Source: Candidatus Oscillochloris fontis
GTDB lineage: Bacteria > Chloroflexota > Chloroflexia > Chloroflexales > Chloroflexaceae
Assembly: GCF_004138135.1 (NCBI RefSeq)
Contig: NZ_RYFD01000002.1
Location: 1 to 64,000, forward strand
DNA length: 64,000 nt
Reading direction: 5' to 3'
Shown: positions 25,896 to 39,885 of the stretch, piece by piece
How the letters are laid out: each line of letters begins with the position of its first letter
How positions within the stretch are numbered: position 1 is the first letter of the stretch
Notes under the pieces: generated by a model
Told to the model about the DNA's origin: nothing
Seen by the model: only the letters and a program-made list of their open reading frames with translations
The model's database searches: none
Translations under genes and position numbers: made by a program

Positions 25896-28800
25896 TCACT
25901 CCCGACCTGATGGATTCCGAAGGTTTGGTTCAGGATTCCAGGTACATGGATCAATGGCATAGGTAGCACACTCATCACTGGTCAGATCACGGATGGTACG
26001 CTGGCTGGCACGTTCAATCAGTTGGTTGGCATTGAGCAGTGCGAGACGCACAAAACCACTTGCATCAGCTATGATCGCTTGGCTCCCATCGGGGCTGAAG
26101 CGCACATCATTGGGGCTGCGGCTGCCCATACTATTGAGCACGAGTTGCCCCGTCTGGCTCTCCCACACGCGCACACTTCCATCTACATTTGGGAATACAA
26201 CTTGGCTACCATCGGCATTAAAGCGTACCCGTTCTGCGCCGCTCGGGTTCTGCTCCAATACCAACTTGGTTCCATCTTCTATATTGTACACAGTTGGGGG
26301 CTGATTCTGCCACACAACCGCAAGCCGTAGCCCATGAGGACTCCATGCAACCGCCCTGGTGTTGTTGAAGGTATCGAGTTTGGGAATGAGTAGTCCCGCA
26401 GTCACATTCCAGATCAGGAGATCATTCTGGCTGGCGGCAGCCAAGAATTGCCCATCGGCACTCCAACTGAGGCTAGGGATATAGCTGGTCTCGGTGGGAA
26501 ATGCACGTTCAAGGCTCAGATCATCAACGGACCAGATGCGTACATTATCCTCGGCACCACTCGTGGCCAACATGCGGCCATCCGGGCTCCATGCAAGATC
26601 GTAGCACCCACCGGGGTGCGCCATGATCGTCCGTGGCGCATTCAGGTTCGCCAGCGACCAGAGATAGGCTGTGCCACTCGCACCAGCGGCGGCCAAGGTC
26701 TGGCCATCGGGGCTAAAGCTGGGGTTGATCAGGTAGTATTCATCGGTGGTGAGGGTGTCGAGCAGGGCTTGGCTGGTAGCATCCCACAGTCTGACCTGAT
26801 TGCCGTTGCCCGTACTGACGATCATACGCCCATCGGGGCTATACGCCACCCCGTAGACCGCTTGCCCATGCACAAGGTGCAGATCCCAACTACGGATGCT
26901 ACGATCATACCCCGCGCTGATCAACGTTGCGCTATCGGGCGCGAAGGCGATCCGAAAGACGGCTCCGCTATGATCGCGCAGGCTGATCAATTCCTGGCCT
27001 GCGGCAACATCCCAAAGCCGAATGGTTGTATCGTTGCTGGCAGAGGCCAGGAAGGCTCCGTTGGGCGCAAAGGCGAGCTGAAAGATCGAATCGCCATGCC
27101 CAAAGAGGGTGCGCTCTTCACGTTGGCTGGCTATATTCCAGACGTGAATGAGCTTATCTTGGCCACTAGTAACCAACTGGTTGCTTTGGAGCGGATGAAA
27201 GGCCAGCGTGTAGAGCGGGTAGCTCGCATCCTCCGCATTGCGGCGCTGATCCAACGCCACCACCAGATCCCCGCTCCTGACATCCCAAATCCGCGCCACC
27301 CCATCGTTGCCCGCTGTGGCTAACCAGCGCCCATCGGGGCTAAAATCGAGCGCATTGACCAGATCGGGATGCACGAGCGGCGGCGTAGCCGGGCTGAAAT
27401 CGTCGGTCTTGAGGAGGTAGAGCGTCGTACCATCATAGCTATTGGCACTCAGCAGTTGCCCATCGGGGCTAAACTGGATCTGGGCGGGCAGGGTCGGGCT
27501 ATAGATCATGGTCGTGCGCAGTAACGCCATCTCCGGGAAGTTCCACAGCCGGATGGCCCCATCGGCCCCACTGGTGGCCACAAGACGCCCATCGGGGCTG
27601 AAGGCAATGCCGTAGGTACCGCCCTCATGCGCCGGGTAGCGTTGCGCTTCCTCCAAACTTCCATCGTTTGGCCAACGCAAGACCTCACCATCAAAGGTCG
27701 TCCCCACAATATTCTGCCCATCGGGGCTAAGCGCCATGGCAGAGAGATTGGGGGTTTCCAGCACCCAACGCAACCGCGATTCCTGCACGGCTTGTTGGAG
27801 GATCTGGCGGATCTCAGGTAGGTCAGGATCACCCGCAGCGGTGGTATTGACGGCGCGCAGGGCGAGCAAGAGGGCACGCTGAGGGTTACTCTGGATCTGC
27901 GTATGGGCACCAGCAGCGAGTTCGCGGGCGCGGCTCATCCGCGAGGAGCTTTCGGCGGTCATACGCGCCATTTCGGCGTGCTGGTAGTTGGTATTGGCCT
28001 GGGTATAAAAGTTGAAGGCGACGATAAAGGCCACCAGCGCCAACCCGGCGGCAACTGAGGCTCCAATCGCAAGGTTGCGCATCCGGCGCGCAGTGCGGGC
28101 GCGCTCCTCAAGGCGACGCTGTTCTTCGCGACAATTCTCAAGGAAGAGCCGCTCTTGGCTGGTCAGTTCGTCCTGATAGGCGGCGGCCCACGTCTCAGCG
28201 TCAGCCAGTTCGGCCTCGCGGAAGAGTAGGCTGTCGGGTTGACCCTGAGCCGTCCAGATCTCGGCTTGGCGCTGCAACGGGCTGAGGTGCTCAGCAAACC
28301 AACGCGCATTATTGGCGCGAACCGGGGCAATCAGGCGATCATGGGCGAGTTCGAGCCACGACACCCCCCGGCGGCGCTCTTCGCGCACCACATAGGCGTT
28401 GGTGAGCGTATCAACCGTGGTCTCATTCAGCCCAAAGCTGGCCTCATTCCCGGCCAAGACCTGGCTGCGGAAGCCCTGGCGGGTGATCAACTGGGTGTCT
28501 ACCCACGAACGCACCGCCCGTTCACGCACCTGGCCCGCCGCTGCCGCTCGCGCCACCCCGCTGGCATAATACTCCTCCAGCGCGTTATCAATGCTCCCCA
28601 TCGCCGCCACATCACCCGCACTGATCATCTGGCCCGCCGTCGCCGGAGTGGGGAAACGGCGCTCCCAGAGGCGGTAGCAGACCACCTGCAACTGCACGGG
28701 TTCAACGTTCAGTCCGACTCGTTCGACGGCCTGCCCGCTACTATCCTGCACCACCACCTTGGCCAGATCGCGCGCTAAAGCCTCGGCCACCCCAGGTTCA

Positions 28801-29483
28801 AACGCCACCCCCTGGGTCGCTGCCGGGCCACAGATTGCCTCCACGGCTGCCTCAACCCCCAAGAGGCTGAGGCGAAAACTATTCGCAAAGCGGGTCGGCA
28901 CGAGATGCGCATACTGTTCGAGCAGCGCCGCCACATACTCCTCGCGGATGGCGAAGAGCGCCCAGCGCCATGGATCGGCCAGTGCATCACCGAGCTGGGT
29001 GAAGAATTGCAGCCGCTCCTCCTCACCACTCGGATCGAGGGTTAAGACCTCCTCAAACTGATCGAAGATGAGCACCTGGCCATTGGTCGCATCAGGAGGC
29101 GTGCGTTGGTTCAGGTAGGCATCGAGGGTCAGGTTAGCCAACTCAGAAGTAGACAGTTGCTCACTGGTTGGGCGACCCTCCTCCAAACTCTGCATAACAC
29201 TGAGCAGGTAGCGATTCGCCCCGGCAATCGGTGCGGGTGCCCCCACGCGGATCGTCGGGCGCACCAAAAAGCGGCGCTGTTCGAGACGCGGAACGAGCGC
29301 GGCTTGGATCAGCGAGGTCTTACCCGCTCCGGAGGGCGAATTGAGCAACACAATGCGGTCACCAACCAGAAGGCTGAGCAGATCGCGTGATTCACGCGCA
29401 CGGCCATAGATAGTCTCGTTGCGGCGAAAGGGCCGCGCACCGATATAGGGCGGCGGTACAACGTGATCGGCAGAGGTGTGCAT
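25896..29483 (-). CDS. nSTAND ATPase with transmembrane helix and 14 WD40 repeats
   Basis: A 1195-residue protein. The N-terminal nSTAND1-type NTPase has P-loop SPSGAGKTS (49-57) and Walker B VLIFDQFEEV (137-146), then the helical region usual for the family (to about 460). One hydrophobic helix (about 466-490, start RNLAIGASVAAG) is followed by a short helical linker and fourteen WD40 repeats (about 570-1160, consensus FSPDGxxLATxGxDGxIRLWD), enough for two seven-bladed propellers. STAND proteins are nucleotide switches: the repeats sense a ligand and ATP binding triggers assembly and effector activation. The CHAT-SIR2 gene ends 8 bp before the chosen ATG (29483); TTG 29489 is an alternative start. 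The product is probably membrane anchored. Confidence 0.9.
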   Translation of the reverse strand: MHTSADHVVPPPYIGARPFRRNETIYGRARESRDLLSLLVGDRIVLLNSPSGAGKTSLIQAALVPRLEQRRFLVRPTIRVGAPAPIAGANRYLLSVMQSLEEGRPTSEQLSTSELANLTLDAYLNQRTPPDATNGQVLIFDQFEEVLTLDPSGEEERLQFFTQLGDALADPWRWALFAIREEYVAALLEQYAHLVPTRFANSFRLSLLGVEAAVEAICGPAATQGVAFEPGVAEALARDLAKVVVQDSSGQAVERVGLNVEPVQLQVVCYRLWERRFPTPATAGQMISAGDVAAMGSIDNALEEYYASGVARAAAAGQVRERAVRSWVDTQLITRQGFRSQVLAGNEASFGLNETTVDTLTNAYVVREERRRGVSWLELAHDRLIAPVRANNARWFAEHLSPLQRQAEIWTAQGQPDSLLFREAELADAETWAAAYQDELTSQERLFLENCREEQRRLEERARTARRMRNLAIGASVAAGLALVAFIVAFNFYTQANTNYQHAEMARMTAESSSRMSRARELAAGAHTQIQSNPQRALLLALRAVNTTAAGDPDLPEIRQILQQAVQESRLRWVLETPNLSAMALSPDGQNIVGTTFDGEVLRWPNDGSLEEAQRYPAHEGGTYGIAFSPDGRLVATSGADGAIRLWNFPEMALLRTTMIYSPTLPAQIQFSPDGQLLSANSYDGTTLYLLKTDDFSPATPPLVHPDLVNALDFSPDGRWLATAGNDGVARIWDVRSGDLVVALDQRRNAEDASYPLYTLAFHPLQSNQLVTSGQDKLIHVWNIASQREERTLFGHGDSIFQLAFAPNGAFLASASNDTTIRLWDVAAGQELISLRDHSGAVFRIAFAPDSATLISAGYDRSIRSWDLHLVHGQAVYGVAYSPDGRMIVSTGNGNQVRLWDATSQALLDTLTTDEYYLINPSFSPDGQTLAAAGASGTAYLWSLANLNAPRTIMAHPGGCYDLAWSPDGRMLATSGAEDNVRIWSVDDLSLERAFPTETSYIPSLSWSADGQFLAAASQNDLLIWNVTAGLLIPKLDTFNNTRAVAWSPHGLRLAVVWQNQPPTVYNIEDGTKLVLEQNPSGAERVRFNADGSQVVFPNVDGSVRVWESQTGQLVLNSMGSRSPNDVRFSPDGSQAIIADASGFVRLALLNANQLIERASQRTIRDLTSDECATYAIDPCTWNPEPNLRNPSGRE

Positions 29484-29491
29484 AATCAATC

Positions 29492-31594
29492 TCAGAAGAA
29501 GGGATTTTCATCTACGGTGGCAACTGGGGCTGGCTCGGCTGCGGACCATTTGCGATGGAGTTCTTGCATAAAATCATCAATACTGCCCCAGAAGAGACTG
29601 ATCTCGGCCCCACGCAGATAGCTCTCCATATAGCGACGGGCGCGTTCGGGGTCGAGGAAGAGACCCTCTTCAGGCAGAATCTGACCCGCAATATTGGCGT
29701 AGCGCGAGCGACGTTGGCGACCTTCGGGGCTGATCACACTACGGAAGAGGACGCGAAAACTCCAATCTTCGAGCCGGAAGCCGAGGAAGAGCAGGCCACT
29801 ATCGGCGAGGGCATCGCTCACCACCGGAGGAATCCACTTCTTATTGCGAGTCACCCCGATCAGATAATCGAAGTAATCATCCTCAGTGAGGACGAGCGAG
29901 TCAGGCACCTTGGTGACCCCAAAGAGGTAGAAGATGAGTGGTTGTTCAGGGCTAGGGGTATAGTTGGGGTTATCGAGCACTGAGGGGAAACGCATCAGGC
30001 GCTCATTCCAGCGACAGATCTCGACCTTCGGATCTTTGCCAGCGGCGCGCAGCGCTTCAACCAAGAGATTATCGGTACCGGCGCTAATATAGATGCGGAA
30101 GGGCAGTTCAGCCAGCACCTTATACGGATCAGCCGGATTCTGGCTGCGGCGCAACTTGCCAACCGCAGCGAAGGTATCCTCCAGGCTCGCATCGGGCTTA
30201 AGGTCGGGCAACTGATCGCCAAAGCGCTTGAGCAACTCATTGCGCATATAGGTATTGAGTTCACGGCGTGGCAACTGCGCATCCTGATTGACGGTGAGGA
30301 ACTCAGCCACCTGGGGGATTTGGTCGCGTTGATCAGGAGCCATGGGGAAGCGGTACTTTTCAGCGAGTGCCTCAGCCGCATGGCGCGGCGGCCCCACCAG
30401 CGACTCGTTCATCTGTGGGCCAAGGATGGGGGTACACAGCCCATCGCGGATATTGCCGATCAGCGCGGGCCACTTCTCTAGGTTACTATCACCACTAAAA
30501 CTAGGCACATACCAGATCTGGCCATTACGCAGGCGCATATAGAGCACCGGCATCCAATGATCAGCGGCATCGCGCACAGTGCCACGCGCCACCGCCATGG
30601 CACGATCAATCATGCCATCCTTGCGCAACTCGCGAAAGAAGACCGGCATAAAGCGCTCGATGGTCTGCATCGCGATCTTGCCCTGCATCGCAATCACCGC
30701 CGGGATGCCAGCACGGGCCAAGCGCGGGCCAAGCGCGTTCAGTGGCCCACCTTCACTGAAATTTGGTATCGCGGCACTCTCGCACGAAGCCAGGACAATC
30801 AGCCGTGGACGTTCGCGCAATTCACTGATCCGAGACACCAGATCGATCCCATCAATCGGGGCCGTCTGAGCATCCGCACCTTCCAAAAAGAGCATCGGCT
30901 TGCCCTTGGGAGTCAGCACCCCATGGGCCACAATGTAGAGGATGTCATAGTTATCGCGCAGGGCGGTGATCATGGCGTCCAAACTTGCGCGGGTCGTACC
31001 ATCACTCGCCAGCGCCGTCACACTGATCGTCTCGCCCATACCGGCACGAGCACGGGCCACCTCACCCGCCACATCAACCGGGTGGAGGCGGAACTTACTC
31101 TCCAGATCGGTTGGGTTAGCCACCACAACCAAGGCGCGCAACTCGCTCTGGGGCCGCAAGCGCACCGGCCCCCAGTCGTTACTACTCAGGAAGCGTGAGA
31201 AGAGCACGCGCTCGCCAGTGAGCAGCAATGAGCCATCCTTGGGGTCACGCAATGTCTCCCAGCGAATAGTCTGAAGTTCCGGGGCACTCGGATCAAGAAA
31301 GAGGCGGATGCGCAACACCCCATCTTGGGCGGCAGTAGCGGCGCGAGCCTCGGCGAAGGCGGTTAGCACGTCGGGTTGGGCGAAGAGCATACCACTCAAC
31401 GCCCGGCCATACGCCTCATGATCCATCTGTAACGCGATAAGTGCAGGAAGATCGAAACTCGCAAGTACAGGGCGATCCGTACTGAGGCGAATGTCGGCGG
31501 CGTCATCGGGGCGCGTAAAACGCAGTTCAACCGTAAAGCTCTCTGCATCACGCCGATAGAGGCCAATTTCTAGATCGGCGAAGCCAGAAGCCAT
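29492..31594 (-). CDS. CHAT caspase-like protease fused to a SIR2-like domain
   Basis: A 700-residue protein. An N-terminal beta-rich region (about 1-150) precedes a CHAT domain (about 150-365) with the catalytic dyad His in YIVAHG (H224) and Cys in LASCESA (C271). A C-terminal SIR2-like domain (about 375-680) is recognised by LVLTEDDYFDYL and LLFLGFRLEDWSFRVLF. Its usual catalytic LHG reads YLFG and the TTNYD-like site reads ISAGTD, so NAD hydrolysis may be lost or altered. CHAT proteases act as caspase-like executioners in several bacterial immune systems. ATG 31594 is chosen over TTG 31603, which would leave no room for a ribosome site. It is first in an operon with the nSTAND-WD40 sensor and the secreted FG-GAP protein. 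Confidence 0.85.
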   Translation of the reverse strand: MASGFADLEIGLYRRDAESFTVELRFTRPDDAADIRLSTDRPVLASFDLPALIALQMDHEAYGRALSGMLFAQPDVLTAFAEARAATAAQDGVLRIRLFLDPSAPELQTIRWETLRDPKDGSLLLTGERVLFSRFLSSNDWGPVRLRPQSELRALVVVANPTDLESKFRLHPVDVAGEVARARAGMGETISVTALASDGTTRASLDAMITALRDNYDILYIVAHGVLTPKGKPMLFLEGADAQTAPIDGIDLVSRISELRERPRLIVLASCESAAIPNFSEGGPLNALGPRLARAGIPAVIAMQGKIAMQTIERFMPVFFRELRKDGMIDRAMAVARGTVRDAADHWMPVLYMRLRNGQIWYVPSFSGDSNLEKWPALIGNIRDGLCTPILGPQMNESLVGPPRHAAEALAEKYRFPMAPDQRDQIPQVAEFLTVNQDAQLPRRELNTYMRNELLKRFGDQLPDLKPDASLEDTFAAVGKLRRSQNPADPYKVLAELPFRIYISAGTDNLLVEALRAAGKDPKVEICRWNERLMRFPSVLDNPNYTPSPEQPLIFYLFGVTKVPDSLVLTEDDYFDYLIGVTRNKKWIPPVVSDALADSGLLFLGFRLEDWSFRVLFRSVISPEGRQRRSRYANIAGQILPEEGLFLDPERARRYMESYLRGAEISLFWGSIDDFMQELHRKWSAAEPAPVATVDENPFF

Positions 31595-31697
31595 AGCGGT
31601 CAACTTTCAGTTAGTGCAGCGGGGTATAACGAATACGTCTAGTACGACTAAGAATAACGAGCATGGAGGGTTTCGTCAAGCGATCTGGGGTCTGGAT

Positions 31698-31786
31698 CAG
31701 GACATGGGTAACGTCACCTCCAGTGGGGGGTTGAGGGCGGCTGCGCCGCCAAAACACAACAAAAATGATGGTTTGGGGCGCAGCCC
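31698..31786. repeat. degenerate family-1 element, copy G
   Basis: CAGGACATGGGTAACGT (31698-31714) is a mutated family-1 end. It is followed by CACCTCCAGTGGGGGG, GGCGGCTGCGCCGCC, an AACACAACAAAAA arm and TTTGGGGCGCAGCCC in the order expected of a copy in reverse orientation. The right end is missing; a family-2 element begins 13 bases later. The 31595-32034 spacer contains only this decayed copy, the family-2 element and the CDF promoter region. Confidence 0.65.
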
Positions 31787-31798
31787 GTAGGTATAGCC

Positions 31799-31952
31799 GT
31801 ATCCGTTCACGATGGAGGTAAACGGATTGCCACTCCTACCCAAAACGACAGGTTGACGCAAAGGCGCGAAGACGCAAAGGTTTTGTTGCAGGCTTTGCGC
31901 CTTTGCGCCTTTGCGTCAAAATCTTGATGTTCGGGGCAGCGTGAACAGTTAC
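31799..31952 (-). mobile_element. family-2 MITE, intact copy (154 bp) with 9-bp target duplication
   Basis: The ends are GTATCCGTTCACG and, on the other strand, GTAACTGTTCACG. The element is bounded by a perfect 9-bp direct repeat GGTATAGCC (31790-31798 and 31953-31961). The core is a long imperfect palindrome of GACGCAAAGGCGCAAAG type (about 31854-31919). Over its whole length it matches, in opposite orientation, the copy at 60560-60713, which is also 154 bp. There is no reading frame of note. Orientation is given relative to the 60.6-kb copy. Confidence 0.9.
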
Positions 31953-32034
31953 GGTATAGCCCGCGACTTCAGTCGCTGGACGATTCGCTCTTTGTGGTAG
32001 TATCTATACCGGAGGCAACGAAAGGATACTATTG

Positions 32035-32991
32035 ATGGGGCACCACCACAGTCACAGCCACGGTCATCACCACCACCACGCACCAACCCACTTTGATCGC
32101 GCCTTTGCGATTGGGGTGGGCCTCAACCTCGTCTTTGTGGTGATCGAATTTGGCTTCGGTATTGCGGCGGGATCGTTGGCGCTGCTGAGTGATGCATGGC
32201 ACAACCTGAGTGATGTGCTCGGTCTCTTGCTGGCCTGGGGCGCACTGGCACTCTCGCGCCGCTTACCCACGATCCACCACACCTACGGCTTGCGCCGATC
32301 TACGATTCTGGCCGCCTTAGCCAACGCGGCCCTGCTCCTGATCGCCATCGGTGGGATTGCCTGGGAGGCCATCCAGCGCCTCTTCAACCCCGATGATGTG
32401 CCCGGCCTGACCCTGGTGATCGTAGCCGGGATCGGTATCCTGATCAATGGACTCACCGCGTGGCTCTTTGCACGCGGTAGCCACGAAGACCTCAACATTC
32501 GCGGTGCCTTCCTGCATATGGTCGCCGATGCGCTCATCTCACTCGGTGTGGTCGTAGCGGGCTTGCTGCTGATGTTTACGGGTTGGACATGGCTCGACCC
32601 GCTGGTGAGTCTGGTCATCGTCCTGGTGATTGGTTGGGGCACCTGGGGTCTGGCCCGCGATTCGGTCGATCTGGCGCTGGATGGGGTGCCAGCCTCGGTT
32701 GATCCCGTGGCAGTACGCAACTACCTGAATAAGCTACCAGGGGTGCGCGAGGTGCATGATCTACATATCTGGGCGCTCAGCACCACCGAACCTGCGCTGA
32801 CGGTTCACCTCGTGGTGGAGCAACACATCGAGGGCGATGCGTTGCTGGCACAGGTACGCACCCACCTGCACGACACATTTGGCATTGAACATGTGACAAT
32901 CCAGTTGGAGATGGGCAATCCCAACTACCCATGTCAACATTGCCCCGACGAGGTGCGCCCTAGCCCAATTGTTCACAAAATAGGTGTCTGA
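32035..32991 (+). CDS. cation diffusion facilitator (CzcD/ZitB-like zinc exporter)
   Basis: A 318-residue CDF transporter. A His-rich N-terminus (GHHHSHSHGHHHHH) precedes six membrane helices (about 20-205). The intramembrane metal site is seen as the HxxxD pairs in LLSDAWHNLSDVLG (helix 2) and LHMVADALISLG (helix 5). The C-terminal cytoplasmic domain (about 215-300) has the VHDLHIWALS motif. These proteins exchange cytoplasmic Zn, Co or Cd for protons. ATG 32035 with AAAGGA 8 bases upstream is preferred to the TTG directly before it. Its 3' end overlaps the convergent PadR-ModA gene by 19 bp. Confidence 0.95.
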   Translation: MGHHHSHSHGHHHHHAPTHFDRAFAIGVGLNLVFVVIEFGFGIAAGSLALLSDAWHNLSDVLGLLLAWGALALSRRLPTIHHTYGLRRSTILAALANAALLLIAIGGIAWEAIQRLFNPDDVPGLTLVIVAGIGILINGLTAWLFARGSHEDLNIRGAFLHMVADALISLGVVVAGLLLMFTGWTWLDPLVSLVIVLVIGWGTWGLARDSVDLALDGVPASVDPVAVRNYLNKLPGVREVHDLHIWALSTTEPALTVHLVVEQHIEGDALLAQVRTHLHDTFGIEHVTIQLEMGNPNYPCQHCPDEVRPSPIVHKIGV

Positions 32992-34268
32992 ATCAATGCG
33001 CCTGCCTGCTTGCCATCCGAAGCAAAGACAATCCCGGCATCGGCATCGCCACGGGTAATACACGTCACCACCTCGGTGACACTGGCCCCATAATAGACCA
33101 CGTTGCGCAAGACGGCGGCTTCTCCAGCGCTTCCCAACATGCCCCGTTCGGCAAGTTGGTGCAGCAGATCGCGGGTATACTGGCCCACAGCGGTCTGCTC
33201 CGAACCCAGGGCGAGCCGCAGGCCCGGTCGGGTCAGATCTTCAGGCTGACGCAACTGAACCGGAGCGCGTGGCGAACTGAGCAACACCAACTGGTTCGAG
33301 GCGAAGGGGTAGACACTCTCTGGCCAGACGCGCCCAGAATGCACAACCAGATCCATGGCTTGACGATGGGCGGGCGCAAAGATATCCGCCGTAGCCCCAC
33401 AGTTGAGTTGGGCACTAAGGATGTAGGAGCCACCAAACGTGAAGCGCAGCGCCACCCCGGCATAATGCGCGGAGAAGTCGGCGGCGATGGTGTGAAAGGC
33501 GTTGGCCAACGAAGCGGCGGCGAAGATGTGTAGGGTGCGCGGCGAAGTTGCGGTTGCCTCAGGAGGAAGAAGTGCGGGTGCCTCGCTCGGCAACGCCGGA
33601 ACCGTGGCAAACCCGGCATTGATCAGGCGCGCTTGCCCCAAGGGCGAACGCACAAAATCCACAAAAGCAGCCACGAGATCGGGCTGTTGGCTATCGGCAA
33701 CCACCGCAATACTACAGGTCACCGGTGCCGGTTCACGCAGCGGAGCAAAGGGATGATCGAGCCAGCGCAACAGACTCTCCATCTGGCGCACCTGCAATTG
33801 CAGGAAGAGACCAGCATCGGGTTGCGTGGCGCGTTGGATGAGTTGGCGGCGCAGATGATCGCGCCACGCACGCACGACGACACGCTGGTTGGTCAGCAGA
33901 CGCTGCACCACCTCTGGCCCGGCGCGTTGGGCAAAGTAGAGCCGCGCAAGTAGATCCATACGCAGATGATCGGGATCAGTCACCGGGCCACGCAACCACT
34001 CGGCAAAGGCCACCCGCCCAGCCTCGGTGAGGATCAGCAACTTACGCGGCGGTGTTTCATGCAGTTCCTCCTCACTCACCACATAGCCCGCCTGGATCAA
34101 TTTGGTGACGAGGGCATAGAAGTGGCTGAGCTTCACATGCCAGATCTTGCCCAACGCATCGGGCGCACTCAGTTGTTGATGCAGCGCATAGGCATGCAGT
34201 GGGCGTTCATGCAGAAAGCCTAAAATGGCATGTTCGATAGTGAGTGGAGATTGCCGCCGTGGACTCAT
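32973..34268 (-). CDS. PadR-family regulator fused to a circularly permuted ModA-like domain
   Basis: A 431-residue fusion. Residues 8-172 are a PadR winged helix plus its C-terminal helices, co-linear with the PadR encoded next door (shared PLTxE..ILGF, ERPLH/QEPLH and LYFAQ.AG.EV.QRL). Residues 181-222 (CSIAVVADSQQP, then AFVDFVRS and GQA) match the last 45 residues of ModA. A Pro/Ala-rich linker follows (223-244). Residues 245-431 match ModA from its mature N-terminus (LHIFAAASLANAF) to the DAGIVF region, where the chain ends. The binding-protein fold is thus complete but permuted. Without a signal peptide it should be cytosolic, a plausible ModE-like molybdate or tungstate sensor for modBA. 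The gene is divergent from padR across a decayed repeat. Confidence 0.85.
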   Translation of the reverse strand: MSPRRQSPLTIEHAILGFLHERPLHAYALHQQLSAPDALGKIWHVKLSHFYALVTKLIQAGYVVSEEELHETPPRKLLILTEAGRVAFAEWLRGPVTDPDHLRMDLLARLYFAQRAGPEVVQRLLTNQRVVVRAWRDHLRRQLIQRATQPDAGLFLQLQVRQMESLLRWLDHPFAPLREPAPVTCSIAVVADSQQPDLVAAFVDFVRSPLGQARLINAGFATVPALPSEAPALLPPEATATSPRTLHIFAAASLANAFHTIAADFSAHYAGVALRFTFGGSYILSAQLNCGATADIFAPAHRQAMDLVVHSGRVWPESVYPFASNQLVLLSSPRAPVQLRQPEDLTRPGLRLALGSEQTAVGQYTRDLLHQLAERGMLGSAGEAAVLRNVVYYGASVTEVVTCITRGDADAGIVFASDGKQAGALIQTPIL

Positions 34269-34274
34269 GGTTGC

Positions 34275-34362
34275 GTTCCTCCGGTGGGGATTTGGGGGCG
34301 GCTTCGTCGCCCAACACCAACAAAAAAAGAGGTTTGGGGCGCAGCCCCAAGGAGTTTACCGA
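34275..34362. repeat. degenerate family-1 element, copy H, between divergent padR genes
   Basis: Read on the minus strand, CTCCTTGGGGCTGCGCCCCAAAC, a TTTTTTTGTTGGTGTTGGGCG arm, GCCGCCCCC and CCCCACCGGAGG follow in family-1 order, but the terminal repeats are gone and one arm of the central hairpin is deleted. It fills most of the 108-bp gap between the two divergent padR genes, so their promoters and operators must lie in or beside it. Confidence 0.65.
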
Positions 34363-34376
34363 AAGGATTATAGCTA

Positions 34377-34889
34377 ATGCCAATGCAGAAACAACCACTC
34401 ACCTTTGAACTGGGCATACTCGGTTTTATGCGCCAAGAGCCGTTGCATGGCTACGAAATCTACCAGCGCATGCAAGCCAGCGAAGGGATGGGGTTAGCTT
34501 GGGGCTTGAAGCAGAACCAACTCTATGCCGAACTCATCCGCCTTGAGGAGGAAGGCTACCTGAGCAGCAGCATCGAAGAACAGGGAACCCGCCCGCCACG
34601 GAAGATCTTCCAACTCACCGCGTATGGTGTGCAACACTATACCGAATGGGTCAATAGCCCCGTAATGCACGGGCGCAACTTTCAGCGCGAGTTCCCGATT
34701 AAGCTCTACTTCGCCCAGCAGGCGGGGCGCGAGGTGGCTCAACGGCTTATCGCTACACAACAGGCAACCTGTGGCGATTGGCTGGCGGCGCTGCCAGCCA
34801 GTGCGGAGCCAGATCTCATCCATGAGTTCCGGCAGAGCCAGATCGAAACCATGCTGGCCTGGTTGGAGACATGTGCAGATTCAATATGA
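34377..34889 (+). CDS. PadR-family transcriptional regulator
   Basis: A 170-residue protein with an N-terminal winged helix (about 7-90) and a C-terminal helical region (about 95-165), of the Vir/AphA-like PadR subclass. The key stretches ILGFMRQEPLHGYEIY and QLYAELIRLEEEGYL are typical of the DNA-binding domain. It is a clear paralogue of the N-terminal part of the divergent PadR-ModA fusion, so the pair probably arose by duplication. It converges on modA with a 9-bp overlap. It is a likely local regulator of the molybdate genes; the ligand is unknown. ATG 34377 has an AAAGGA site 10 bases upstream. Confidence 0.9.
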   Translation: MPMQKQPLTFELGILGFMRQEPLHGYEIYQRMQASEGMGLAWGLKQNQLYAELIRLEEEGYLSSSIEEQGTRPPRKIFQLTAYGVQHYTEWVNSPVMHGRNFQREFPIKLYFAQQAGREVAQRLIATQQATCGDWLAALPASAEPDLIHEFRQSQIETMLAWLETCADSI

Positions 34890-35723
34890 GAGAAACCCAT
34901 ACGTAACCAAAATCGCCTGCCCTTCCGCCGAACGGACAAAATCCACAAACGCCTGCGCTACTTCGGGAGCAGCGCTCTTGGCGAGTGGGGCAATCGGATA
35001 GGTCGCAATCGAATTGATCGTCTCAGGGATGCTGATCTGTACCAACTCATCCGCCGCCAACGCCGCATCAGTCGTATAGAGAATCCCGGCGTCGGCCTCC
35101 CCTAGCCGCACCTTGGTCAGCACGCTGCGCACATCATCCTCGTAAGAGACCACATTGGCCAATACGGCCTCAGCATAGGTTGCGCCATATTCAGGTAGTT
35201 CGCTCGCCTTGCTCAGAACATCGAGCGTATACTGACCAATCGGAGTGGCCTTATCGGCCAAGACCAATTTGAGGCCCGGCTTGGTCAGATCAGCCAAGGT
35301 CTGTACTGCCGCCGGATTCTCCTTGGGCAGAATCAGCACTAACTGGTTCTGGGCAAAGTTCTGCTCCTGGCCACTGGCGACCATGCCACTCGCGATGACC
35401 ACATCCATCTGCTTGAGATTGGCCGACGCAAAGACATCCGCTGGGGCACCTTCGTTGATCTGGTTCGCCAATTGTTGCGACCCAGCAAAGTTATAGACGA
35501 CCGTTACCCCAGGATTGGCGGCTTCAAATGCGGTGGCGATCTCCTGAAAGGCTGTGGTGAGCGAGGCCGCCGCAAAGACGTTGAGGGTGGTTGTGGTCGC
35601 CACGATGGGGGCGGTGCTGGCTTCAGCACTAGGGCTTGGGGCGGCGGGCGTTGCCTGGCCACAGGCACTCAGCAGGAGCGCGAACAGGGCCATGAGCACG
35701 AACAGGGTGCGCCGTTGGGACAT
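34881..35723 (-). CDS. modA: molybdate ABC transporter substrate-binding lipoprotein
   Basis: A 280-residue lipoprotein. It has a signal peptide with lipobox LLSAC (C21), a Ala/Pro/Thr-rich linker to about residue 46, and a complete ModA fold. Ligand-site segments include NVFAAASLTTAF, NFAGSQQLANQI and DAGILYTTDA. The C-terminal IATYPIAPLAKSAAPEVAQ helix region is present in normal order, which makes this the natural reference for the permuted copy in the adjacent regulator. ModA captures molybdate or tungstate outside the membrane and delivers it to ModB. It is downstream of modB, with a family-2 element between the two. A GGGAGG site precedes the ATG. Confidence 0.95.
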   Translation of the reverse strand: MSQRRTLFVLMALFALLLSACGQATPAAPSPSAEASTAPIVATTTTLNVFAAASLTTAFQEIATAFEAANPGVTVVYNFAGSQQLANQINEGAPADVFASANLKQMDVVIASGMVASGQEQNFAQNQLVLILPKENPAAVQTLADLTKPGLKLVLADKATPIGQYTLDVLSKASELPEYGATYAEAVLANVVSYEDDVRSVLTKVRLGEADAGILYTTDAALAADELVQISIPETINSIATYPIAPLAKSAAPEVAQAFVDFVRSAEGQAILVTYGFLSY

Positions 35724-35748
35724 ACGAACCTCCCTTGCTAGAGCTACG

Positions 35749-35890
35749 GTAATTGTTCACACTTCTCCTCACATCCCGGTTTTGACGCAAAGACGCCAAG
35801 GCGCAGAGCTTTTACTAGAAGTTCTAATTACAACCTTTGCGTCTTTGCGTCAACCAAATGCTTCGGTTTACCCCAAGTGTGAACAGGTAC
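35749..35890 (+). repeat. divergent family-2 element (142 bp) between modB and modA
   Basis: The ends are GTAATTGTTCACACTT and AAGTGTGAACAGGTAC, a good inverted repeat resembling family 2, around the GACGCAAAGACGCCAAGGCGC...GCGTCTTTGCGTC palindrome. Only a 5-bp flanking match CTACG (35744-35748 and 35891-35895) is visible, so target duplication is less clear than in the 154-bp copies. It separates two genes expected to be co-transcribed and could fold into a strong hairpin in the modB-modA message. Confidence 0.75.
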
Positions 35891-35897
35891 CTACGGA

Positions 35898-36725
35898 CTA
35901 CACGCGCTGACGCAAGATCGCCTTGACCAGCCAGAGCACCCCAAAGGAGACCACCAGCATGATCATGGCTAGGGTCAGCGCAAGATTGAGATCGAGTTCA
36001 AAGCCGAGGTAGATGGCGAGCGGCATGGTTTGGGTGCGACCGGGGAAGTTGCCCGCAAAGATGATCGTGGCCCCAAATTCACCCAACGCCCGCGCCCAGC
36101 TCATCACCAATCCACCCAAGAGAACGGGCCACGCCAGCGGTACGGTCATATAGCGAAAGACCTGCCACGGACTCGCGCCATCAATCTCGGCTGCATATTC
36201 AAGCTCGCGCTCGACGCCCGCAAAGGCCGAGATCGCCGTCTTGATATAGAAGGGGGCCGACACAAAGACCTGCGCCAAGACCACCGCCACGGTGGTGAAG
36301 GCGAGGCTAATCCCGATATCGTTGAGCCAGGAACCGAGCATGCCGCGCCGCCCAAAGGCCATGAGCAGGGCGATACCCGCCACCGAGGGCGGCAATACCA
36401 TCGGTAAATCAATCAGCGTGTCAATGAGACTGCGCCCGCGAAACTGATACCGCGCTAACAGATAGGCCAGGGGGGTTCCGAAGAGCAAACTCAGCGCGGT
36501 ACTCCACGCCGATGTGAATAGACTCAGGCTGATCGCTTGGCTCACCTCGCGGGCCACGAGGTGCTCAAGCATAACACGCAGATCCACCCGGAAGATGATC
36601 GCCAGGATGGGGAAGAGCAGGTAGGCCAGAATCGGCAGGCTGGCAAGCATCAGGCCGAGCGGCGCGAGATTGCTGAACCGCCATGTTGGGCGGGCGGTGA
36701 GGCGGAAGGCGGTGCTGCGTGCCAT
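35898..36725 (-). CDS. modB: molybdate ABC transporter permease
   Basis: A 275-residue permease with about six membrane helices. The diagnostic EAA loop is seen in EYAAEIDGASPWQVFRYMTVP, with ModB-type sequence also in LPMVLPPSVAGIALL and ALGEFGATIIFAGNFPGRT. It forms the molybdate or tungstate channel. The gene precedes modA on the minus strand. No modC ATPase gene is adjacent or elsewhere in the window, so the ATPase must be encoded elsewhere or shared. AAGGTG lies 6 bases before the ATG. Confidence 0.95.
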   Translation of the reverse strand: MARSTAFRLTARPTWRFSNLAPLGLMLASLPILAYLLFPILAIIFRVDLRVMLEHLVAREVSQAISLSLFTSAWSTALSLLFGTPLAYLLARYQFRGRSLIDTLIDLPMVLPPSVAGIALLMAFGRRGMLGSWLNDIGISLAFTTVAVVLAQVFVSAPFYIKTAISAFAGVERELEYAAEIDGASPWQVFRYMTVPLAWPVLLGGLVMSWARALGEFGATIIFAGNFPGRTQTMPLAIYLGFELDLNLALTLAMIMLVVSFGVLWLVKAILRQRV

Positions 36726-36807
36726 ACATTCACCTTTTGATTACTCATTTAATGAATATACGATACAAGAGAAAAGAGGATGTGTCAAGGGGGGATGAGC
36801 GCACAGA

Positions 36808-36886
36808 TTTTGACACAAAGACGGAGAGCCACAAAGCAATACAAATTCAGAAAGCTTTGCGCCTTGGCGTCTTTGCGTCAAAATAC
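36808..36886. repeat. family-2 core palindrome without terminal repeats
   Basis: TTTTGACACAAAGACGGAG on the left pairs with CTTTGCGCCTTGGCGTC and GCGTCAAAA on the right. The left arm has decayed. No GTTCAC ends are seen. It occupies the 163-bp gap upstream of modB, whose promoter should therefore lie in the AT-rich stretch 36730-36790. Confidence 0.65.
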
Positions 36887-36888
36887 CG

Positions 36889-37911
36889 TCAACCCCTTAT
36901 CCCGCGCTCGATCAACACCTGCTGCAACGCTGGCTCGATCTGGGCCTGGATACTGGGGTTGGCGTAGCCGATCCAGCCCACATCACTCTCGGTATCCAGC
37001 GGGGCATCCAGAGTCGCCCCGCGCTCATCGGTCAGGATGACCCCGGCCTTATAGGCGAGCATGATCGTCGCTAGATCGTAGGGATGGCAGCAGATCCCCA
37101 AGGCTTCGCCGCGCTGGGCGAGGTGCTGATCGAGCAGCGGGCGCAGGTCGGCCACAAAGCGATCATGACCGGCGATCAGTTCGTAGAGTTGACCGGCGCT
37201 AGAGATGTATTGATCCTCAAAGCAGTGGGCCTTACCCGGCTGCGGGGGGCCGAGCGTGGCGCGGATGAGTGCCTCGTCAATCGCGGCCAGTTCCTCGCGT
37301 GCTCCGGGGAAGAAGCGGCTGATCATGGCGAAGCCGTGGGCAATGCTGCTCGCCCGCGAGGGGCGGAGCCGAATCGGACTCTGGGTGTCAGTAAGGCGGT
37401 TGAAGCGTACCGCATGCAGCGGGCCATCGGCAAAGGCCCAGAGTTGGTCGCTGAGATGTTGCTTCACCAGCGGGATCTCGGTCTGTACCGCCAAGGCAAT
37501 GTCGGAGAGGCGCGTCGCGGGGCCACGATTGGGCGCGATGCCGGTGAGAATCCAGGCGCTGCGCTTCTGGTACATGAGGCCACGGGTGCCATCAATCGGA
37601 TCAACTAGCACCCGAATCTGGGCTGCCGCCGCGTCGCTGCCGTGGGGCAACACCACGTAGCCGCCGGGGAGACCCTCGGCGACCAGCACCAGCGGCCACG
37701 TGGGAGCCACCCGTTGGGCGAAGAACTCGACCAACAACTCCTCGCTGACCCGATCAATCGCGTAGATGGTATCACCCGCCTGGTCATCCTCGACCACATC
37801 GGCCAGATCGTCCACCGCGCTGCGTTCGCACGAATCGATCACGGCGGCACGAATCTGGGCGTGGAGATCGAGGATCAGTGACAAGAGGCGCTCAGGATTG
37901 TGGATAGGCAT
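36889..37911 (-). CDS. inositol monophosphatase-family phosphatase
   Basis: A 340-residue protein. The metal-binding signature VDPIDGTRG (D104, D107) and the upstream glutamate in LVAEG (E79) mark the inositol monophosphatase / FBPase / CysQ superfamily. The last family motif, normally WD, is represented by HPYDLATIMLAYKAGG-like sequence (CCHPYDLATI), so the final metal Asp is kept although Trp is lost. It is longer than typical SuhB (about 265), with a roughly 60-residue insert around 160-240. Phosphatase activity on a sugar, inositol or nucleotide phosphate is likely; the substrate is undetermined. The gene follows osmC after 8 bp and forms an operon with it. Confidence 0.85.
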   Translation of the reverse strand: MPIHNPERLLSLILDLHAQIRAAVIDSCERSAVDDLADVVEDDQAGDTIYAIDRVSEELLVEFFAQRVAPTWPLVLVAEGLPGGYVVLPHGSDAAAAQIRVLVDPIDGTRGLMYQKRSAWILTGIAPNRGPATRLSDIALAVQTEIPLVKQHLSDQLWAFADGPLHAVRFNRLTDTQSPIRLRPSRASSIAHGFAMISRFFPGAREELAAIDEALIRATLGPPQPGKAHCFEDQYISSAGQLYELIAGHDRFVADLRPLLDQHLAQRGEALGICCHPYDLATIMLAYKAGVILTDERGATLDAPLDTESDVGWIGYANPSIQAQIEPALQQVLIERGIRG

Positions 37912-37919
37912 GCAACCCC

Positions 37920-38453
37920 CTAGCCAACTCGTTCGACCCGCCCCGCCACCTGAAGCGGGGTGGTCAGCGCCAGCAACACCGGGCAGAGGCGGGCAATCTC
38001 GCTCTGGATAAAGGCCATCTCAGCATCATCCACCGCCCCAACGAAGCGCAGCGTATAGCCGATATTGCTCGGTGGCACCAGCGCCTCCGGGGTCACATCG
38101 AGAGTGCCTCGATAATCGAGTTGGCCCGTCACTTCCACCTCAAACTGCTCAAAGACCACCCCTCGGTCAGCGGCGATCACCATTGCGGAATGAGCCAGAC
38201 AACTCGCCAACGCCCCCAGGAGCAATTCGGGCGCACTCGGCCCCAGGCCATACCCGCCCAACACCGCCCCGGCATCGGTGACCACCATATGATCCCGGAT
38301 GCGGATCGGGCGCACCCCGGAGCCTGCCGCGACCGTCACCGAGGCGCGCAGGGGCGTCGGGCCAGCATCGGAGGCGCGCAGTTGCTCGCGGTAGGCATCC
38401 ACTAATTCGCGCTTGCGCTCCAAATATTCGGGAAGATTCCAGGTGGCTGGCAT
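37920..38453 (-). CDS. OsmC/Ohr-family peroxiredoxin-like protein
   Basis: A 177-residue protein of the OsmC fold. The two redox cysteines can be placed as C85 (GALASCLAHS) and C157 (ARLCPVL), the usual spacing for the family. OsmC/Ohr proteins reduce organic hydroperoxides with thiol or lipoyl reductants. An N-terminal extension of about 30 residues (EYLERKRELVDAYREQL) is helical and less typical. AGAAGGAG precedes the ATG by about 7 bases. It is first in a two-gene operon with the phosphatase and divergent from the parvulin gene. Confidence 0.9.
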   Translation of the reverse strand: MPATWNLPEYLERKRELVDAYREQLRASDAGPTPLRASVTVAAGSGVRPIRIRDHMVVTDAGAVLGGYGLGPSAPELLLGALASCLAHSAMVIAADRGVVFEQFEVEVTGQLDYRGTLDVTPEALVPPSNIGYTLRFVGAVDDAEMAFIQSEIARLCPVLLALTTPLQVAGRVERVG

Positions 38454-38590
38454 AGAGGTTCTCCTTCTTCAAGATGCGTGCATGGTGCTGATTGTAGTCC
38501 AAGCGTAAGCGATGAGCAATATTGGCCATGCCCGCGCAGAATATGGTACGATACCCGCACGGATCCATCCATACCCACGAGGAGAGAACG

Positions 38591-39679
38591 GTGACCGACC
38601 CGCACTCCAGCGATGCGCACGAGACGCACTCGACTGAGCCAGATGACCAGAGACTATCCGACACTGAAGACTATCGGGATGAGCCGCTACGTAGTGGGAG
38701 TGCAGGTAACCGCCGCCTCCTGGTTCTGATCGGTTCACTCCTGCTCTTACTCGCTATTGGTGGTGGGGTTGTTGCCACGGTGATGCCACCGGCGGCAGCC
38801 ACGCCAGCGGTGAATAACCCCGCTGTTAGCTTGCCGACCTCCAACCTGCCCACCGCCCTACCCTTGCCGCAAGCCATCGGTGACGTAACCAGTACCGAAC
38901 CCGTAGCTCAAATTGGTGATACCGCCATTACTCGTGGCGACTTTGTACGCACCTACCAGCCCGGTGATGATCCCAGCGCAGTGCTGAAGCAACTGATTCA
39001 AGTAGAACTGTTGCTCCGCCAAGCCGAGATCGAAGGCGTGACGGTGGATGCCAGCGAGCTTGATGCTGAAATCGCGGCGATTAAGGGCAGTGTCGCGAGC
39101 GAGGAAGAGTTTGCTGCCATGCTCGCCGCCAACCAGATCGAGTCCGAAGAGGCGATGCGCGTCGTGATTGAGCGCAACATGCTGATTGATAAGATGGTAC
39201 TCAGCCACACCACGATGGAGCAGGTGCATGCGCGCCACATCCTGCTCAGTACCACCGAAGAGACCGTTGAGGCCCGTAAGGCTGAAGCAGAAGCCTTGCT
39301 GACCCAACTCCAAGGCGGTGCCGACTTCGCCCAAATCGCTGCCGAAAAGTCGGAAGACCCCGGCTCGAAAGAGAATGGTGGCGATCTTGGTTGGGCTGGG
39401 CGCGGCATGTTCGTCGAGCCATTCGATGCTGCGGTCTTTAGTATGCAAAAAGACGAGATCCGCCTCGTCCAGACCGACTTCGGCTGGCATATCATCCAGG
39501 TGATTGATCCGCCCGAAGTGCGCCCGCTCGATAGCTCTGATCTGCTGGGCACAATGGCCGGCCAGCAGGCATTTACCGAGACCTTTATGTCCTGGCTCAA
39601 TCAGATCTATACCGATGCCGAGCAGAAGAACGAGATCACCATCTTGATGACCAATGAACAATTGGTAAGTCAGCCGTAA
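38591..39679 (+). CDS. membrane-anchored parvulin-type peptidyl-prolyl isomerase (PpiC/PrsA-like)
   Basis: A 362-residue protein. A charged cytoplasmic N-terminus leads to one membrane helix (about 39-60), a Pro/Ala-rich linker, a SurA/PrsA-like helical chaperone region (about 100-210), and a parvulin domain (about 213-310) with HARHILLST, GADFAQIAAEKSEDP, GGDLGWAGRGMFVEPF and GWHIIQV. It would assist folding of secreted proteins at the outer face of the membrane. GTG 38591 is chosen over the upstream ATG 38522 because AGGAG sits 6 bases before it and the extra 23 residues overlap the promoter (TGGTACGAT at 38545-38553). Confidence 0.88.
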   Translation: MTDPHSSDAHETHSTEPDDQRLSDTEDYRDEPLRSGSAGNRRLLVLIGSLLLLLAIGGGVVATVMPPAAATPAVNNPAVSLPTSNLPTALPLPQAIGDVTSTEPVAQIGDTAITRGDFVRTYQPGDDPSAVLKQLIQVELLLRQAEIEGVTVDASELDAEIAAIKGSVASEEEFAAMLAANQIESEEAMRVVIERNMLIDKMVLSHTTMEQVHARHILLSTTEETVEARKAEAEALLTQLQGGADFAQIAAEKSEDPGSKENGGDLGWAGRGMFVEPFDAAVFSMQKDEIRLVQTDFGWHIIQVIDPPEVRPLDSSDLLGTMAGQQAFTETFMSWLNQIYTDAEQKNEITILMTNEQLVSQP

Positions 39680-39704
39680 CCTCTCTTCACAATCGCCCCC
39701 CATG

Positions 39705-39788
39705 CATCAGGTAGGGGCGAAGCATCGCCCGCCAACCTCGTTCGGGTTCGCCGAACTACATGGAGGGCGATGCTTCGCCCCTACGGGC
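39705..39788. repeat. family-3 inverted repeat (GTAGGGGCGAAGCATCGCCC)
   Basis: GTAGGGGCGAAGCATCGCCC at 39710 is matched by the exact inverted arm GGGCGATGCTTCGCCCCTAC ending at 39784. The loop contains CCAACCTCGTTCGGGTTCG, as in the tandem array at 53.0 kb. It is non-coding, between the parvulin and VWA genes. A 15-bp direct repeat TTTGCGCACACCCCT follows at about 39834-39864. Confidence 0.8.
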
Positions 39789-39872
39789 CGATGGGGAAAC
39801 CCGACAATGTGTGGAGCGAGCATGGTGGCGCAATTTTGCGCACACCCCTTTGCGCACACCCCTTTTGAGTGC

Positions 39873-39878
39873 TACAGT
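39873..39878 (+). promoter_or_regulatory. -10 box for a probably leaderless VWA gene
   Basis: TACAGT at 39873-39878 ends exactly 7 bases before the ATG at 39886, with no ribosome site between. The geometry equals that of the TACAAT boxes before the genes starting at 12373 and 16568. Confidence 0.45.
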
Positions 39879-39885
39879 ATGAGAC

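Follow-up and report, generated by a model that had tools for sequence, protein, structure and literature searches.

A PadR-type regulator fused to a circularly permuted ModA domain: a putative molybdate sensor of Chloroflexales

We analysed a stretch of 64,000 nucleotides (in the following, the window) from Candidatus Oscillochloris fontis, covering positions 1–64,000 of contig NZ_RYFD01000002.1 (assembly GCF_004138135.1). It encodes a protein in which a PadR-type DNA-binding head is fused to ModA. The ModA part is circularly permuted and cut in the loop immediately preceding the second hinge between its two lobes: the C-terminal piece of ModA (C-piece) stands in front of the main piece. Computation establishes this architecture as well as the permutation. 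With a probability of roughly 0.76 we regard the fusion as a cytoplasmic, molybdate- or tungstate-responsive PadR repressor of modBA that senses its ligand via the hinge-cut ModA. The coordinates of all features are collected in Table 1.

Residues 15–89 of the fusion match the Pfam family PadR (PF03551) with 37.3 bits (cut-off 27). PF10400 reached 21.9 bits, just below its cut-off of 22.4, and the AlphaFold2 model shows three helices at residues 99–171. SBP_bac_11 (PF13531) matches residues 246–422 with model positions 1–169 of 227, and TIGR01256 (modA, NCBIfam) matches residues 251–422 with 87.1 bits (cut-off 62.5) and model positions 1–164 of 217. As the latter match ends at position 164, the last quarter of the model is missing from the C-terminus of the fusion; it is located at residues 181–222. 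Linker 2, which follows this piece, is Pro/Ala-rich. PF12727 (PBP_like) scored 13.3 bits, under its cut-off of 27, and profile searches found neither a LysR-type helix-turn-helix (HTH) nor a TOBE domain in the fusion protein. In agreement with an initial annotation of this DNA, which had claimed that a signal peptide is absent, neither a signal sequence nor a lipobox was seen on reading the N-terminus, which is the PadR head itself.

A BLASTP comparison of the fusion with the neighbouring ModA gave two high-scoring segment pairs in swapped order: the first pairs fusion residues 213–430 with ModA residues 15–232 (41% identity, 2e-43), and the end of the second (3e-9) pairs residues 185–220 with ModA residues 242–277. 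The C-piece aligned to ModA with a score of 87, compared to a maximum of 54 among 5000 shuffles of the C-piece. Against one ModA copy the sensor scored 344, against two mature ModA copies in tandem 400; the tandem alignment is single and unbroken, covering 228 of the 236 mature residues with only 8 loop residues absent. The tandem outscored the single copy for all nine fusions analysed. The initial annotation had proposed a complete ModA fold with its C-terminal piece in front, and both the swapped segment pairs and the continuous tandem alignment bear this out; AFVDFVRS and GQA are indeed common to the fusion and the neighbouring ModA. The location of the supposed last 45 ModA residues at 181–222 is likewise correct, although their extent has to be corrected to the last ~42. 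A second small correction is that the permuted copy holds essentially all of mature ModA.

The AlphaFold2 model of the full-length fusion has a mean pLDDT (predicted local distance difference test) of 91, with ~95 in the C-piece and weak values only at the two linkers and the ends. A structure prediction of the permuted part had been suggested together with the annotation: the sensor alone folds confidently as one domain (pLDDT 91.8, predicted template modelling score 0.86), and the C-piece strand lies within a sheet. This being the only strand of the C-piece, its partners in the sheet must belong to the main piece. Foldseek matched ModA structures over ~190 columns and saw only the main piece. 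Since Foldseek aligns in sequence order it can give no confirmation of the permuted part, and no solved structure in permuted order was among its best matches. In Pseudomonas aeruginosa ModA the second hinge comprises residues 209–212 of 251 (PMC9171197). Judged by residue count from the C-terminus, without alignment to the P. aeruginosa sequence, hinge 2 would coincide with the start of the C-piece, so that the PadR head would join hinge 2 directly via ~9 residues.

The gene order in the window is fusion (−), PadR2 (+), modA (−), modB (−), PadR2 being an unfused PadR paralogue. Across Chloroflexota with a mod-linked PadR we found a 17-bp palindrome, TAyTCA-N5-TGArTA, just behind mod promoters of the TTGACA-N17-TATAAT type. 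With at most one mismatch and within 250 bp upstream, the palindrome is present at 22 of 50 mod-locus genes compared to 0.5% of random stretches. The motif was derived from eight of these 22 sites; it also occurs at 15 of the 22 unfused mod-linked PadR genes that were not used for its definition. At the same threshold none of 11 genomes without a mod-locus PadR (G008, G011, G016, G022, G023, G026, G029, G032, G035, G038 and G058) carries the palindrome near modAB. Conservation of the operator and its co-occurrence with mod-linked PadR genes are thereby established by computation. Exceptions among the genomes without a mod-linked PadR are G006 and G010, in the latter of which the contig ends there. 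Operator-like sites upstream of modA were also seen at L172 4383 (G006) and L160 3813 (G002), where no mod-linked PadR was found; their regulator may lie elsewhere or be missing from the assembly.

The operator in the window overlaps the expected modB transcription start, a position that suits a repressor; no other exact match in this genome is promoter-proximal. A regulon beyond modBA received no support there: the five other exact sites lie inside or at the end of open reading frames. Two intergenic regions had been named for footprinting, and the operator is found in 36726–36888 and not in 34269–34376. Upstream of the fusion gene itself an operator with 0–2 mismatches occurs at L025, L042–L045 and L127. 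In order-level relatives (L029, L031, L033, L037, L039, L048 and L053) an unfused PadR directly precedes modA-modB. The fusion occupies this place in G020 and G043; the resulting operon, fusion-modA-modB, has a perfect operator in both genomes, and in G020 modD comes next. The operator, together with such operons without any other mod-type PadR, lends strong comparative support to the claim that modBA would be controlled through the PadR head. At L044 7834–8742, in another Oscillochloris metagenome-assembled genome (MAG), modD stands immediately after the fusion gene, a further molybdenum link. The operator is often doubled, two palindromes 15 bp apart having TA in common, as at L048 4577–4608, L045 7945–7976, L062 1034–1065 and L139 1464–1495; this layout suggests two PadR dimers side by side. 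No riboswitch or other known RNA was found in 28000–42000.

With regard to the mechanism we infer oxyanion binding by the sensor, binding of PadR to the operator, the sign of the response and its coupling through the hinge. The fusion would be a one-component cytoplasmic regulator that senses through a complete ModA domain with both lobes: the PadR head is tied to it at the permutation cut by the ~9-residue linker, and a flexible linker of ~20 residues bridges the natural ends of ModA. Cytoplasmic molybdate or tungstate would close the two lobes and, because the PadR dimer helices attach to the hinge strand, this closure would alter the DNA-binding state of the PadR dimer. The ligand-bound form is predicted to occupy the palindrome over the transcription start of modBA and, in most relatives, that of the fusion gene too. 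When molybdenum is plentiful, modBA would thus be shut off and uptake would stop. We expect the oxyanion-bound closed sensor to be the DNA-binding form because ample molybdenum should keep the uptake genes switched off.

Several observations weigh against this model. The promoter region of the fusion itself carries no operator in the window, nor in G015 (L041). Unfused PadRs, which have no ModA domain, appear to share this operator, so that the sensor would be dispensable for DNA recognition, and where PadR2 is present either PadR or a heterodimer could bind the operator. Within the sensor, one fusion (L045) has Pro at the position of the presumed contact Val152 of Escherichia coli ModA, and two have Thr at that of Ser12. 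The missing operator in the fusion promoter of the window also favours the strongest rival, which we nevertheless consider rather unlikely: PadR2 alone controls modBA and the fusion acts as a modulator, either heterodimerizing with PadR2 or titrating molybdate. Indeed, several Oscillochloris-type genomes, that of the window among them, have PadR2 in divergent orientation next to the fusion, and PadR2 may pair with the fusion. However, a second PadR match is absent from G020 and, at the strict threshold used, from G043, so that the fusion is the only candidate operator binder found in these two genomes, where the operator is perfect. In the PadR tree, moreover, the fused heads are placed with the operonic PadRs of the relatives and not with PadR2, at modest support (86/87). 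A ModE or TOBE regulator in the same genome was rejected: neither a TOBE-domain protein nor a match to the ModE model was found in the genome of the window, which is 99.99% complete.

The oxyanion contacts of E. coli ModA, which we take to be S12, S39, A125, V152 and Y170, correspond to S253, S281, V361, V397 and F415 in the fusion of the window. Four of the five are thus kept or conservative (S, S, V, V), and Tyr170 is replaced by Phe, as in eight of the nine fusions analysed (the exception being L127). This replacement speaks for a second alternative, which we find less probable still than sole control by PadR2: a genuine sensor that reads another small anion or metabolite (for example tungstate only, sulfate or chromate), the ligand releasing PadR from DNA. 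Solute-binding protein families drift in specificity, and most PadRs leave the DNA on ligand binding. On the other side, Phe at this position also occurs in unfused transport ModAs, the best-matching families are ModA and not sulfate binders, and the neighbours are modA, modB and modD. P. aeruginosa ModA has no fifth ligand either and still shows molybdate binding at ~1 nM (PMC9171197).

Over six ortholog pairs omega was 0.13–0.20 for PadR, 0.09–0.30 for the ModA main piece, 0.19–0.66 for the C-piece, where the window pair gave no defined value, and ~0.4–1.3 for linker 2, which is 14–33% identical between most orthologues. Purifying selection acts on the PadR and ModA parts but not on the linker. 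That the ModA part is a decaying, functionless passenger of a chance gene fusion is therefore very improbable and was rejected on grounds of selection and fold: one MAG has broken copies (L052), but the main piece is constrained in all six pairs, the ligand residues are retained and the fold is predicted with high confidence.

The permuted order was found in 11 genomes (the window's, G001, G003, G004, G005, G014, G015, G018, G020, G041 and G043), all within one Chloroflexales family of green photosynthetic bacteria and including Oscillochloris sp. ZM17-4 and Chloroflexales bacterium ZM16-3. Two of these fusions are in pieces, G004 being split across two contigs and G014 having a split PadR reading frame. 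No fusion was found outside that family among 158 Chloroflexia genomes and 400 genomes sampled across the phylum, the named-genome scan using only two peptide patterns, by which other families may be missed. A single origin is likewise established computationally: nine fusions form one clade (support 100/100) in a tree built from ordinary ModAs and the fusion domains after re-ordering, so that the permutation most likely arose once. The homologue search proposed in the initial annotation returned permuted orthologues, and no PadR-ModA fusion in normal ModA order was seen; a match spanning PadR and ModA in G025 turned out to be two separate genes, and a similar one in G310 contains internal stops. 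An assembly or annotation artefact that joins the adjoining PadR and modA genes has next to no probability, since it would leave the normal ModA order, whereas the swapped order recurs in orthologues at 38–60% identity in independent assemblies, strains ZM17-4 and ZM16-3 among them. The broken copies of G041 (L052; L043 4944–5357) were left out as unreliable. In this MAG a fusion copy and two modA copies (L052 2055–3332 and 972–1673; L043 4944–5357) are all internally deleted, probably by assembly faults or decay.

The ancestral-type order is PadR-modA-modB. A likely route to the fusion is that modA was duplicated in place within this operon, after which PadR would have fused to the tail of the first modA copy, with read-through into the second copy and loss of the ends. 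The tandem duplication postulated by the initial annotation is plausible in view of the operon order and of a remnant in ZM16-3, but the likeness of linker 2 to the ModA lipobox linker, also put forward, is weak, of low complexity and compositional only. In ZM16-3 the C-terminal half of an extra ModA lies right after the fusion (L046 9526–9951) and is the probable remnant of a duplicated, decayed modA; similar ModA fragments in G041 may be assembly faults.

In its cytoplasmic, molybdate-responsive control of the mod operon the fusion would resemble E. coli ModE, which in contrast consists of a LysR-type winged helix and a TOBE/Mop-type sensor. The winged helix, the putative helical dimer domain and the candidate palindromic operator would be shared with PadR regulators such as Bacillus subtilis PadR (5x11) and Mycobacterium tuberculosis Rv0047c (8jxk). 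In the known PadRs the ligand sits within the dimer, whereas here a separate 250-residue sensor is appended. The sequence family, the predicted two-lobe fold and most of the oxyanion positions are those of ModA (E. coli 1amf/1wod; Yersinia 6nio; Listeria Lmo1041 7tav), but the fusion has no signal peptide, is permuted and carries a DNA-binding head. The combination of a DNA-binding head with a cytoplasmic sensor of the solute-binding type is also seen in LysR-type regulators and in the HTH proteins of PBP_like (PF12727); their sensor is in normal order and their head is a different one. To our knowledge, no other naturally permuted periplasmic binding protein serves as the sensor of a regulator, and the literature searches turned up none. 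In engineered biosensors built from periplasmic binding proteins, lobe closure drives a joined output domain, sometimes via circular permutation (reviewed in PMC6335823); these are man-made, whereas the fusion apparently evolved and has a transcription factor as output. In the literature searched, to which most subscription journals do not belong, neither a fusion of PadR with ModA nor a natural permutation of ModA was found described.

We think it probable that a natural hinge-cut, permuted solute-binding protein here acts as allosteric sensor for a transcription factor, and that Chloroflexota possess an otherwise unknown PadR-based molybdenum regulation with its own operator, in which unfused PadRs would sense by another route. 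If so, a transporter binding protein became a cytoplasmic sensor via one gene rearrangement that placed the new end at the hinge, and evolution took the same route as the designers of biosensors. For Chloroflexota genomes without ModE there would be a molybdenum regulator that can be tested on a defined operator of 17 bp, and the design of oxyanion biosensors would have a natural template.

Table 1. Features of the fusion gene and the mod locus in the window
Feature	Position	Strand	Basis
PadR-cpModA fusion gene, 431 aa, ATG start	32973..34268	-	profile matches; same order in 11 genomes, two of these in pieces
PadR winged-helix DNA-binding domain, residues ~10-93	33990..34241	-	PF03551; helices and wing in AlphaFold2 model
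PadR C-terminal helices, putative dimerization type, residues 99-171	33756..33974	-	AlphaFold2 helices 99-116, 118-145, 150-171
Short linker 1, residues 172-180, PadR to ModA hinge-2 strand	33729..33755	-	pLDDT falls to about 61
Relocated ModA C-piece, residues 181-222	33603..33728	-	BLASTP and tandem alignment; strand 183-190, helices 196-217, pLDDT ~95
Linker 2, residues 223-243, old ModA C-terminus to old N-terminus	33540..33602	-	low pLDDT; weak conservation
ModA main piece, residues 244-431, mature start to loop before hinge 2	32976..33539	-	TIGR01256 and PF13531; oxyanion positions
Unfused PadR paralogue PadR2, divergent to fusion	34377..34889	+	PF03551 54.8 bits; separate clade 100/99
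modA lipoprotein, normal order	34881..35723	-	TIGR01256 169.9 bits
modB permease	35898..36725	-	TIGR01581 and TIGR02141 above cut-off
Operator palindrome TACTCA-TTTAA-TGAATA, 16 bp before modB start	36742..36758	.	exact motif match
modB promoter: -35 TTGACA (36783-36788), 17-bp spacer, -10 TATCGT (36760-36765)	36760..36788	-	sequence

Elsewhere in the window, at 25896–31603 on the minus strand, a CHAT and SIR2_2 protein (703 aa) adjoins an nSTAND1 NTPase (1197 aa) that contains WD40 repeats; the layout resembles bacterial immune or signalling pairs. Inverted repeats of the type TTTTGACGCAAAGACGCCAAGGCGCAAAGC lie between modA and modB (35780–35853) and upstream of modB (36851–36883); their 33-nt arms are 97% complementary and they look like dispersed intergenic repeats.
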